Assembly (NCBI RefSeq): GCF_000185145.2
Contig: NZ_GL833119.1
Span: 2,049,464 to 2,113,463 of the forward strand
DNA: 64,000 nt
Direction of reading: 5' to 3'
From: Hoylesella oralis ATCC 33269
GTDB lineage: Bacteria; Bacteroidota; Bacteroidia; Bacteroidales; Bacteroidaceae
Within the stretch, counting starts at the first letter, position 1. Every line of letters starts with the position of its first letter. Of the stretch, positions 9,406 through 55,665 are shown piece by piece. The notes beneath the pieces are model-generated. The model made no database searches and had not been told where the DNA came from. It worked only from the letters and a program-made list of their open reading frames with translations. The position numbers and the translations under genes are program-made.

Positions 9406-9436
9406 TGATGTGTATGTTTCTCTTAAAAATACAATG

Positions 9437-9509
9437 AGCGGCAAACGGGGCTCGAACCCGCGACCTCGACCTTGGCAAGGTCGCGCTCTACCAACTGAGC
9501 TATTGCCGC
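9437..9509 (-). tRNA. tRNA-Gly (anticodon GCC), copy 2
   Basis: Cloverleaf read on the minus strand: acceptor GCGGCAA/TTGCCGC, D arm AGCTCAGTTGGTAGAGC, anticodon loop TTGCCAA (GCC), T arm with GGTTCGAGCC. 73 nt, no encoded CCA. Identical in sequence to the copy at 9775-9847. Confidence 0.95.
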
Positions 9510-9534
9510 AGAGCGTAAAAAAGTATAATAAAAA

Positions 9535-9621
9535 TGGTGAAGAGGAGGAGACTCGAACTCCCACGAAACAATTTTCACTACCCCCTCAAAGTAGCGCGTC
9601 TACCAATTCCGCCACCTCTCC
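9535..9621 (-). tRNA. tRNA-Leu (anticodon GAG)
   Basis: Minus-strand class II tRNA with a long variable arm: acceptor GGAGAGG pairs with CCTCTTC (one G-U), D arm GGCGGAATTGGTAGACGC, anticodon loop TTGAGGG giving GAG, T loop TTCGAGT. CCA is encoded at the 3' end (9535-9537), unlike its neighbours. Confidence 0.93.
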
Positions 9622-9648
9622 AACAAGTCTTTCTCTCTGAATAAATTG

Positions 9649-9730
9649 TGCCCAGAACAGGACTCGAACCTGCACGTCGTAAAACACACGCACCTGAAAC
9701 GTGCGCGTCTACCAATTCCGCCACCTGGGC
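9649..9730 (-). tRNA. tRNA-Leu (anticodon CAG)
   Basis: Minus-strand class II tRNA: acceptor GCCCAGG with TTCTGGGC, anticodon loop TTCAGGT giving CAG, long variable arm, T arm CAGGTTCGAGTCCTG. No encoded CCA. Confidence 0.93.
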
Positions 9731-9774
9731 AACTTGAAGTTCCCGACTTCATTCCATCATTTATTCAAGAAATG

Positions 9775-9847
9775 AGCGGCAAACGGGGCTCGAACCCGCG
9801 ACCTCGACCTTGGCAAGGTCGCGCTCTACCAACTGAGCTATTGCCGC
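9775..9847 (-). tRNA. tRNA-Gly (anticodon GCC), copy 1
   Basis: First gene of the tRNA cluster in transcription order. Same 73-nt sequence as the copy at 9437-9509; the pair forms a perfect direct repeat flanking the two tRNA-Leu genes. Confidence 0.95.
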
Positions 9848-13400: not shown

Positions 13401-13439
13401 ATTTTACAAAGATACCTCTCAATATCGTTAAAAACCGGA

Positions 13440-13505
13440 TATATGTAGCACAGGTAGCAGACTTAAGCAATATACATATATTCCCTATATCAATCTCATC
13501 ATCTT
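13440..13505 (+). repeat. Array E of degenerate 22-bp direct repeats
   Basis: Units at 13440 and 13462 match units 1 and 2 of array C (55591, 55613) at about 15 and 14 of 22 positions respectively, keeping the same order and the 22-bp step; the third (13484) is more decayed. It begins 40 bp past the terminator of the TlpA-like gene. Further on, GTCGAA/TTCGAC (13524-13539) followed by TGTTTTT is a weak hairpin. Confidence 0.5.
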
Positions 13506-20994: not shown

Positions 20995-21564
20995 ATGAAA
21001 TTTATATTCTATTTATCATTCGCATTTTCGGTATTATCAGCTTCTGCAAAGATACCGAAAGCGTCGTCTCCAATAGCTAACAGAGTAAATACGGCAGCTA
21101 AGCACTTACCCTTATCGGCCATGCTTGTGGCGAAATACACCGATAATAGGCGGCACTGTCTGTATTACATATACCAAAACAGACTCTATTGCTTCGATGT
21201 AAAAAGCAATAAAACGCAAGATATTAACTTCGAAACGAACAATTATTCCTCCATCTTGAGGGCTTTTTCTGTGGCAGACGGCAATCTACTGTTCATAGCC
21301 GTGGAACGTAAAGGGCTTACAAACTCATATATTACCGACGGACAGGTATTGTGGGGCATAAACACCTTCAATAAACAATCGTTCAAAATAGGCGAAGGCT
21401 ACGATATATCTAAGCACAAAGACCATTTTCTTATAAAGAAAGGTGCGAGATGTCTCAATCCGCAAGCCCCGCAACACCGTCGCAAATGGATGATTAAAGA
21501 CCACTATTTCTATTTGGACGGCAAACCGATGTTCGTAAAAGAAGAATATTTATATCGTCCTTAA
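20995..21564 (+). CDS. Exported protein of unknown function
   Basis: 189 residues with a signal peptide (MKFIFYLSFAFSVLSASA). The mature part alternates short strands such as YYIYQNRLYCFDV and LLFIAVERKGLTN, which suggests a beta-sheet or partial beta-propeller fold, but no motif is recognisable. It has its own promoter and a downstream hairpin, so it stands alone between the cytochrome locus and the DUF5715 gene. Function unknown. Confidence 0.75.
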   Translation: MKFIFYLSFAFSVLSASAKIPKASSPIANRVNTAAKHLPLSAMLVAKYTDNRRHCLYYIYQNRLYCFDVKSNKTQDINFETNNYSSILRAFSVADGNLLFIAVERKGLTNSYITDGQVLWGINTFNKQSFKIGEGYDISKHKDHFLIKKGARCLNPQAPQHRRKWMIKDHYFYLDGKPMFVKEEYLYRP

Positions 21565-21587: not shown

Positions 21588-21622
21588 CTCTCTAATGAAT
21601 AAAGAACGTACTCATTAGAGAG
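21588..21622. terminator. Terminator between converging genes
   Basis: 11-bp perfect stem CTCTCTAATGA/TCATTAGAGAG (21588-21598 with 21612-21622), then ATTATTT. It lies 24 bp after the plus-strand gene. The stretch 21623-21751 holds no gene; weak 22-bp periodicity (TATGTCT at 21645, TACGTCT at 21667) is visible. Confidence 0.65.
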
Positions 21623-21751
21623 ATTATTTAAGCCCGATAGATAATATGTCTACTGATCACAAACCATACGTCTGATAGAAATATTCTATAGAAATATCTG
21701 TCATAAAATAAATCTGCCTTATTGTCGAAAAATCGGAGAAGCGCCGTTATG

Positions 21752-39326: not shown

Positions 39327-39394
39327 AACCGTCTTTGTACAATTATCACCTCATACGCAAAGACCTACTCCCCACATTTCTTTCTATTTCCATG

Positions 39395-39482
39395 CATAGG
39401 CCAAGCGTCTACCACAGATAAACAGCCCACTTATCAGTATCAGACGGCACCTATATTCTCGATAGAAGTATCGGCAACCGAA
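39395..39482 (+). repeat. Array D of degenerate 22-bp direct repeats
   Basis: Four units at 39395, 39417, 39439 and 39461. The first matches array C unit 1 (55591) at 13 of 22 positions (CATAGGC, then TACC), the third matches array C unit 2 at 13 of 22, the fourth matches unit 1 at 11 of 22. It starts 69 bp after the helicase stop codon. The rest of 39327-39842 has no gene; an 8-bp inverted repeat CTCATTAA/TTAATGAG (39801-39831) lies just past the end of the GNAT gene. Confidence 0.5.
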
Positions 39483-52792: not shown

Positions 52793-52830
52793 CCATGTTC
52801 ATTGAAACAAAATAAAAACAACTCCGCTTA

Positions 52831-52896
52831 GACCATATATCTAAGGTGCTTAAATAGGCATTCTGAGGAGCTTAGATGGTATATCTATTTACGGCA
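52831..52896 (+). repeat. Array B of degenerate 22-bp direct repeats
   Basis: GCTT occurs at 52826, 52848 and 52870, exactly 22 bp apart. The outer two copies agree at 15 of 22 positions, differing mainly where CCA is replaced by TGG. In the phase of array C (units 52831, 52853, 52875) the middle unit shares ATAGGCA and matches array C unit 1 at 13 of 22. It begins 93 bp after the ClC stop codon; 52897-53010 shows nothing further. Confidence 0.5.
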
Positions 52897-54505: not shown

Positions 54506-55549
54506 ATGGTACAGCGCACAAACAAAGTATTGCTCATCTACACCGGCGGTACGATCGGCATGGGGCTTAATCCCGATACCAACGCATTGGAGCCCTTGGA
54601 TTTTAATCACTTGGTTAAAAAGCTGCCGGAGTTCTCTTATTTGGAGACCGACATAGATATCTATCAGTTCAATCCGGCCATCGACTCGAGTGACATGAGC
54701 CCTGCAATGTGGGCGCAGCTCGTGACTATCATCAGTGAACGCTACAACCGTTACGACGGTTTCGTTATTCTGCACGGCACGGACACGATGGCTTACACGG
54801 CTTCTGCCCTCTCCTTCATGCTCGAGAACCTCACTAAACCGGTGATACTTACGGGAAGTCAGCTACCTATAGGGCTATTGCGCACCGACGGAAAGGAGAA
54901 CTTGCTCACAAGTATAGAACTTGCATCGCACGCAAAAGCCGACGGTACGGCAATGGTTCCCGAGGTATGTATCTACTTCAGCGGCGTTCTGCTGCGCGGA
55001 AACCGCAGTACCAAGAAGAACGCCGATGGCTTTTCGGCCTTCGAGTCGTTCAATTATCCGCACCTGTGCGACGCGGGCGTGAACTTTGTGTTCCACGAAC
55101 ATCACATTTTGCAGCCCGACTTTTCGAAGCCTATGGCAGCACATACGGCCATGAATTCTAATGTAGTGGTCTTTTCTTTGTTCCCCGGAATTGAAGAAAA
55201 CATAGTGCATCACGTGCTCGATGCTCCCGAATTGCGCAGCATTGTGATGCGAACGTATGGCAGCGGTAACGCTCCCAAGACGCCTTGGATTATGCATTTG
55301 CTGGAAAAGGCGGCCGCCAGAGGCGTTACGATTGTTAATATCAGCCAGTGTATATCGGGCAGTGTGGAGATGGAAAGATACGACACAGGCTATCAACTGA
55401 AGCAAATTGGCGTGGTTACAGGTTACGACAGTACGGTAGAGGCTGCCGTTACGAAGCTGATGTATCTGCAAGCCATCTACGACGACAGCACTACCATCCG
55501 CCGAATGATGAACCGGTCGATAGCCGGAGAAATAACGATAACGGAATAA
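54506..55549 (+). CDS. ansA: Type I L-asparaginase
   Basis: 347 residues, no signal peptide, so cytoplasmic. The first catalytic Thr is in LLIYTGGTIGMG and the second site in GFVILHGTDTMAYTASALSF; GSQLPIG and YFSGVLLRGNRSTKK also fit. It hydrolyses asparagine to aspartate. It is 17 bp after rlmD and 20 bp before array C. Confidence 0.95.
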   Translation: MVQRTNKVLLIYTGGTIGMGLNPDTNALEPLDFNHLVKKLPEFSYLETDIDIYQFNPAIDSSDMSPAMWAQLVTIISERYNRYDGFVILHGTDTMAYTASALSFMLENLTKPVILTGSQLPIGLLRTDGKENLLTSIELASHAKADGTAMVPEVCIYFSGVLLRGNRSTKKNADGFSAFESFNYPHLCDAGVNFVFHEHHILQPDFSKPMAAHTAMNSNVVVFSLFPGIEENIVHHVLDAPELRSIVMRTYGSGNAPKTPWIMHLLEKAAARGVTIVNISQCISGSVEMERYDTGYQLKQIGVVTGYDSTVEAAVTKLMYLQAIYDDSTTIRRMMNRSIAGEITITE

Positions 55550-55568
55550 TCTCCGCGCCTGTATGCCG

Positions 55569-55634
55569 AACAGCGGGCATGTCTATCGATCATAGGCAGT
55601 ACAGGTACCGTACATAGGCGGTACATATATGTGC
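55569..55634 (+). repeat. Array C of 22-bp direct repeats (best conserved)
   Basis: Two adjacent units at 55591 and 55613 start with CATAGGC and GTAC in the same places; a weaker unit at 55569 precedes them. Unit 1 reads CATAGGCA at positions 1-8 and TACAGGTACC at 10-19, and it served as reference for the other arrays. It lies between the ansA stop codon and the terminator at 55666. Confidence 0.6.
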
Positions 55635-55665
55635 CACAGAGAATATTTCTAAATATGACAAAACA

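Follow-up and report, generated by a model that had tools for sequence, protein, structure and literature searches.

What are the short, poorly matching units that follow one another every 22 bp in the intergenic DNA at 55569-55634? A preliminary description had placed them in a family of at least five arrays, with a period that would suit the binding of a protein to one face of the helix. The window, that is, the whole 64-kb stretch of DNA analysed here, corresponds to C4:2049464-2113463 in a four-contig genome of 2.84 Mb, and the closest named relatives of one encoded protein belong to Prevotellaceae (best identity 77%). Since standard repeat finding misses the window arrays (none of the five is present in the output of Tandem Repeats Finder), we used three controlled tests: autocorrelation of intergenic DNA at different lags, maximal segments at lag 22, and a 22-column profile. 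Gene calls were crude, coming from a purpose-written Markov scorer. The profile, with the consensus gATAGAtaTaccgTnTAtcgnn, went through eight refinement rounds and was trained solely on two 400-kb samples outside the window. Its seed was picked by eye from a listing that included window arrays, so 400 kb of unseen sequence serves as the clean test.

Arrays of the 64-kb window

The profile recovers all five arrays, one of them weakly, together with one that had been missed, and this bears out the idea of one family with a 22-bp step. The five were found in the places described. Plus-strand ORFs ending at 1030, 13356, 39326, 52738 and 55549 precede them, and the arrays start 149, 84, 69, 93 and 20 bp further on, respectively. 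The first, previously delimited as 1179-1288, appears as four units at 1185-1272 (score 16.9, run score 21.9, core fit 21/24), its far end giving an additional profile match at 1251 (7.5). The second (13440-13505) corresponds to three weak units at 13424-13489, with a core fit of 18/18 and a three-unit score of 8.2, and falls under the run-score cut-off. Three units each make up the arrays at 39392-39457 (formerly 39395-39482; score 23.4, run score 21.9, core fit 18/18) and 52824-52889 (formerly 52831-52896; score 29.2, run score 27.7, core fit 18/18). The array under study, first seen at 55569-55634, extends over four units at 55566-55653, with a score of 23.0 (at 55588), a run score of 28.7 and a core fit of 22/24. 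The array missed before consists of three units at 21611-21676 (score 24.1, run score 22.6, core fit 18/18) and starts 47 bp past an ORF ending at 21564. The profile places all six arrays on the minus strand. Overall, seven profile matches of at least 6 were found in the window, as against a mean of 0.115 for 200 column-permuted profiles, none of which matched the top score of 29.2 (best permuted 22.8).

Other details of the preliminary description stood in part. Unit-to-unit identity had been given as 13-15 of 22 positions; it is 14 of 22 for the pairs 1201/1223 and 55591/55613, but 12 of 22 for 52831/52853 and only 8-9 at 13440 and 39395. The arrays had also been said to have no open frame, but a 122-codon plus-strand ORF (1066-1434), which the crude gene caller did not accept, spans the first array. 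The exact motif of the best unit has five matches genome-wide with at most two mismatches; the sole one lying in an array is that of the window itself, and no array was noticed around the remaining four. A CRISPR array was rejected as an explanation: the units recur every 22 bp without a constant repeat.

Spread of the family over the genome

The excess autocorrelation at lag 22 that the preliminary description had led one to expect is present. Among lags 7-100, intergenic DNA has its maximum at lag 22 both in the window and in a pair of 400-kb samples from other parts of the contig, with lags 44 and 66 also among the strongest, and lag 22 comes out on top again in a fourth sample of 400 kb of fresh sequence. 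Maximal lag-22 segments scoring at least 10 number 39 in this genome, and each of eleven control lags yields 0-6 such segments. TG runs account for three of the 39, and there are copies of one another in the set. These TG dinucleotide runs, about 46-53 bp long and intergenic, lie at C4:1054749, 1786099 and 1966636; they score at lag 22, so raw array counts are slightly inflated.

Further members of the window family are plentiful. In the 400 kb of unseen DNA, the profile matches 40 of 168 gaps of at least 66 bp (contigs C1, C3 and C4), whereas about 0.2 would be matched by permuted profiles. With a stricter run score, 64 arrays were found in the first 864 kb, versus 0.5 for permuted profiles; the comparison with coding sequence is 64 in 140 kb of gaps versus 4 in 716 kb. 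Over 1.264 Mb the count reaches 108 arrays, a number without a permuted control of its own, and 103 of these have 3-5 units. By extrapolation, the whole genome holds roughly 240 arrays of the window family. On contigs C1, C3 and C4, they occupy 21-24% of the longer gaps.

The window family is absent from 80 loci of related genomes, with a profile match in one gap versus 1.75 by permutation. For homologues of the ORF at 54506-55549, which precedes the array under study, the downstream DNA was compared in 31 of the 80 loci, and no window-motif array was found in it; lag-22 segments are strong there in two loci (22.3 and 18.3) and weak in two more (6.4 and 7.9), the motifs all being different.

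Each unit is a degenerate dyad

The unit can be written as YANR-N7-YNTR, a degenerate dyad centred on column 10. Among 224 units chosen by the profile, column 4 is A in 95% and column 16 is T in 98%; further preferences are for a pyrimidine at column 3, a purine at columns 6 and 17, and T in most units at 14, so that Y3 mirrors R17 and A6 mirrors T14. No covariation was found between the dyad columns of these 224 units: for example, pair 3-17 is complementary at 0.594 both as observed and after shuffling, and 7 of 8 arm pairs lie within about one standard deviation of the shuffled value, pair 8-12 being slightly higher (0.375 vs 0.310). The largest excess over shuffling concerns columns one or two apart (9-10, 10-11, 19-20 and 15-17). 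Neighbouring units share 9.93 of 22 positions (160 pairs), and units from different arrays share 9.60. The corresponding values in positions are 17.2 and 16.5 for another family of this genome, TAAGGAGA, and 20.2 and 19.0 for the GTCAACC family, whose array goes with the HU-HIG gene (see below) at C4:1847531-1847935.

Without covariation, and with neighbours barely alike, the units look like independent sites for a protein on duplex DNA rather than hairpins or fresh duplications. Selection on single sites, phased at two helical turns, would be the natural reading of such variation. The suggestion that a protein lines one face of the helix fits well here, as dyad symmetry in the absence of covariation is what protein recognition of duplex DNA would be expected to leave. 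Judging from these sequence patterns, the window arrays are probably phased sites for a protein.

Could the arrays instead be selfish or neutral sequences, either minisatellites in decay or MITE-like elements, akin to BrickBuilt of Porphyromonas gingivalis? Near-perfect 22-bp arrays do occur in this genome and in its relatives, the window family is missing from the relatives' 80 loci, and a cassette consisting of an HU-HIG gene (see below) and its array is present three times among housekeeping genes of this genome. However, neighbouring window-family units are barely closer to each other than units across arrays, unlike fresh tandem copies, and the variation spares the fixed dyad columns. The six window arrays agree with the motif at 115 of 120 core positions, and the fit is complete in 16 of 20 units (background positions, 0.9%), values inflated by the fact that the profile itself selected the units. 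We therefore regard decaying or mobile repeats as an unlikely origin of the window family. As to BrickBuilt itself, its 23-nt step was rejected for the present arrays: the maximum falls at lag 22, and lag 23 does not figure among the strongest ones listed.

Conserved pyrimidine-purine (YR) steps, mostly TA and then CA or TG, occupy columns 3/4 in 96% and columns 16/17 in 97% of units, which puts them 13 bp apart inside a unit and 9 bp apart over the unit junction. In HU- and IHF-DNA complexes, two kinks lie 9 bp apart. This spacing is no more than a hint of such kinks, because other arrays show no enrichment of 9-bp YR spacing (9 vs 8.7 expected, and 20 vs 17.6).

Position and orientation relative to genes

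The rule that arrays lie past the stop codon of a gene, drawn earlier from the window, does not hold genome-wide, because divergent gaps contain no gene end. Genes were called on both sides of 105 arrays, of which 29 lie in such gaps (-+), 29 between ++ genes, 24 between -- genes and 23 in convergent (+-) gaps. These classes roughly follow the gaps available (111 -+, 165 ++, 118 -- and 84 +-). A check of strand bias showed the motif strand to be balanced relative to flanking genes, and the window-family arrays in unseen sequence divide into 19 on the plus and 21 on the minus strand. That all the window arrays follow plus-strand genes is a local coincidence.

A role in RNA 3' ends had been proposed on a par with chromosome folding. 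It is unsupported, since divergent gaps are used, the flank classes track the gaps and the strand is balanced. More generally, RNA elements such as tandem hairpins, terminators or mRNA 3'-end signals would agree with the stop codon before every window array and with the palindromic character of many arrays from other families (36% of 39 in this genome and 45% of 73 in relatives by a column-permutation test, p <= 0.05). Nevertheless, the dyad arms of the window family do not covary, G-T and A-C pairs are about equally common in the palindromic arrays (109 and 106), divergent gaps are not shunned, and Rfam has no match at the arrays, its matches above the gathering score being four tRNAs in the window and three tRNAs in seven relatives' loci. 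Hairpins were rejected for the window family on its lack of both covariation and strand bias, and we consider RNA elements of any of these kinds highly improbable. The four tRNA genes of the window (Gly, Leu, Leu, Gly) form a cluster on the minus strand at 9436-9847.

An orientation linked to the replichore was rejected as well. Arrays of the TAAGGAGA family switch strand within 1.0-2.0 Mb despite a positive GC skew there, and the window family is balanced between strands. GC skew is negative across the window and positive in nearly all 25-kb bins sampled over 1.0-2.0 Mb; with such a change of sign, an origin or terminus of replication may sit just before the window (from C4:2.00 Mb to the window start).

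Other 22-bp arrays accompany HU-HIG genes

The genome and many of its relatives hold further 22-bp arrays, with very different units that are often palindromic and range from perfect to degenerate. Strong examples in relatives' loci are L108:4023-4161 and L082:5155-5417, with others in L100, L114 and L047; in each of these last three loci, a pair of arrays from a single local family falls within about 20 kb, as though every species had a dispersed family of its own.

Several of the strongest arrays of this genome adjoin genes for HU-like proteins, namely HU-HIG (PF18291). In these proteins, both PF18291 and PF00216 score above the cut-off. A predicted model (pLDDT 91) has HU and IHF as its best PDB folds (E ~2e-4), and the fold comparison also met 4FMR, a solved structure of HU-HIG (PF18291). 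As modelled, HU-HIG proteins have the HU/IHF fold. They were found in all 60 congeners searched, with up to 30 matches per genome.

We analysed 80 HU-HIG genes. Half of them represent 40 loci that include 11 matches from this genome, some being weak HU matches and three being copies of a single cassette; the other 40 were picked from among the HU-HIG matches. The 80 are the best-scoring ones and no random draw. An upstream lag-22 segment of at least 10 accompanies 41 of them, compared with 0-5 at seven control lags, and the downstream figure is 8 of 80. The strong HU-HIG genes of this genome have an upstream array in six of seven cases (three being copies), the exception being L161. Outside this genome, 35 of 69 HU-HIG genes have an upstream array versus 38 of 950 other genes in relatives' loci (odds ratio 25). 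The gaps upstream of HU-HIG genes are long, however, and matching for gap length weakens the link: with gaps of at least 150 bp, arrays lie upstream of 34 of 63 HU-HIG genes versus 35 of 229 others (odds ratio 6.5, p 2e-9), and gap-matched within 28 shared genomes the figures are 29 of 53 versus 32 of 166 (odds ratio 5.1, p 2e-6). When the proteins are clustered at 60% identity, 17 of 39 clusters have any array. In other Bacteroidales families, upstream segments of at least 15 occur at 3 of 5 and 5 of 20 HU-HIG genes, and ordinary HU genes from such families have a segment of at least 10 in 1 of 24 cases, no more than at neighbouring lags.

Across 40 congeners (20 kb sampled from each), the number of HU-HIG genes correlates weakly with the array load (rho 0.32-0.35, p 0.025-0.042). 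Exceptions occur in either direction, among them three HU-HIG-rich genomes that show no array in the sampled 20 kb. In a tree of 75 HU-HIG proteins, some clades are mostly array-bearing, and the clade around L161 has no arrays at all. The latter consists of proteins of about 150 aa (L161, L233, L210, L178, L192, L195, L190 and others) and has members in many of the sampled genomes; it is possible that it represents a general architectural paralog.

Pairing of motifs with proteins

For the 32 HU-HIG genes whose arrays are good (three are copies), motifs become more alike as the identity of the proteins rises. For pairs below 70% identity the Mantel r is 0.44, a value matched by none of 2000 permutations, though promoter ancestry and base composition in common may contribute to it. 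Some promoter motifs also recur elsewhere in the same genome. The motif of the 147-aa HU-HIG of this genome (C4:1765645-1766088), TAAGGAGA, is found in 50 copies at 13 places of it and in none of 19 relatives; with a slightly altered pattern it is present in 4 of 60 genomes, this one included. In one of the genomes (G084), both places of the TAAGGAGA type have an HU-HIG match at a distance of about 260 bp. Likewise, the motif upstream of the HU-HIG gene of another genome (G126) has 56 copies at 12 places there and none in 59 other genomes.

In this genome, an HU-HIG gene with a TAAGGAGA array occurs three times among housekeeping genes, at C4:1765296-1766279, 1784856-1786413 and 1965284-1966951 (L034, L035 and L044). 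Two copies of the cassette are 99.8% identical across 1560 bp; inspection of the cassette by eye found no terminal inverted repeat at its ends and no transposase gene within it.

Which protein, then, might recognise the window family? The window motif has no convincing place upstream of HU-HIG genes: the best one, in another genome (L204), scores 13.9 against 14.6 for permuted profiles, and the upstream regions of L161 and L163-L166 of this genome score -1.3 or lower. The step from the window family to the HU superfamily is thus an analogy, as no HU-HIG gene was found to carry the window motif upstream, and L161 is a candidate by elimination only.

Proposed model

With this in mind, we tentatively favour the reading that the window arrays are phased dyad sites of a dimeric DNA-bending protein that, by analogy with the HU-HIG promoter arrays, may belong to the HU/IHF superfamily. 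Every 22 bp, or two helical turns, holds one degenerate dyad site, mostly 3-5 of them per cluster; the dimers would occupy these sites side by side along one face of the DNA, with the conserved YR steps as flexible points, and the bound protein would shape the chromosome or nearby promoters. Each HU-HIG paralog might bind its own array and perhaps regulate itself through it, because the motif changes with the paralog and some promoter-array families recur around the same genome.

A second reading is somewhat less probable in our view. It has the sites phased for a dimer from some superfamily other than HU, with an architectural or regulatory function. The HU-HIG promoter arrays would then be a separate matter, the period being common to both as two turns would suit any cooperative dimer. 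It would be in line with the absence of the window motif from the HU-HIG upstream regions scanned and with the ordinary genes of many kinds that the arrays adjoin, and motif and dyad alone do not name a fold. What speaks against it is the fact that HU-HIG promoters from different genera and families have the identical period, and the presence of an HU-HIG promoter's motif in some of the dispersed arrays.

Staying with an HU-fold protein, it is tempting to speculate, with still less assurance than for the window arrays themselves, that the expanded HU-fold set of Bacteroidales constitutes a DNA-architecture code: each paralog would recognise a dyad of its own, act on its gene by way of one such array and mark the chromosome with others, protein and motif would turn over between species, and the family of the window would have reached between one-fifth and one-quarter of the longer gaps. 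If this is true, HU-HIG proteins gain a concrete, testable DNA target, HU-fold proteins can act via sequence-specific phased arrays, much unannotated intergenic DNA in Prevotella-type genomes is explained, and natural protein-site pairs with fast-evolving specificity are on offer. Should the HU link fail, a degenerate site that is phased at two turns and occupies between one-fifth and one-quarter of the longer gaps is still a notable chromosome landmark.

Comparison with known systems

Several known systems share some of these features. REP/BIME elements with their RAYT transposases are species-specific, dispersed, palindromic intergenic repeats whose partner gene carries repeats beside it. 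Some HU-HIG genes likewise carry repeats alongside, but here the partner is an HU-fold protein, and the arms of the window family lack covariation. A REP/RAYT system was rejected: the Y1 transposase PF01797 has 0 matches in this genome, while 5 of 14 control genomes were positive. matS/MatP sites and replication iterons are dyad or direct-repeat protein sites, helix-phased and present in many or few copies; unlike them, the window family has 3-5 sites per array in 21-24% of the longer gaps. HU-HIG, reportedly described by Burroughs and colleagues in 2017, is the family (PF18291) whose promoters bear the 22-bp dyad arrays, and a search of a literature collection with few subscription papers turned up no account of target arrays for it.

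The TAACTGA direct repeats of Beggiatoaceae form many intergenic sets, 169 of them in one draft genome (PMC4679880). Unlike the window family, that repeat is a fixed heptamer, for which a post-transcriptional role has been proposed (PMC4679880).

The nearest known thing in the literature searched is BrickBuilt of P. gingivalis: a spacerless intergenic 23-nt minisatellite inside a MITE, with units 0-11% mismatched, 1 to 22.8 of them per copy, a 'leader', a 'tail' and terminal inverted repeats (PMC4596501). Both are species-restricted families of Bacteroidales with many intergenic copies, built of tandem units that measure about two helical turns and have no spacers between them. BrickBuilt is one sequence family with the ends just named, whereas the window family is a degenerate dyad, apparently lacking ends of this kind and mostly of 3-5 units. 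The BrickBuilt paper also mentions earlier reports of 22- and 41-nt repeats, and in its Table 1 BrickBuilt_14 adjoins a PF00216 (HU-type) gene (PMC4596501), an arrangement that recalls the HU-HIG arrays of the present genome.
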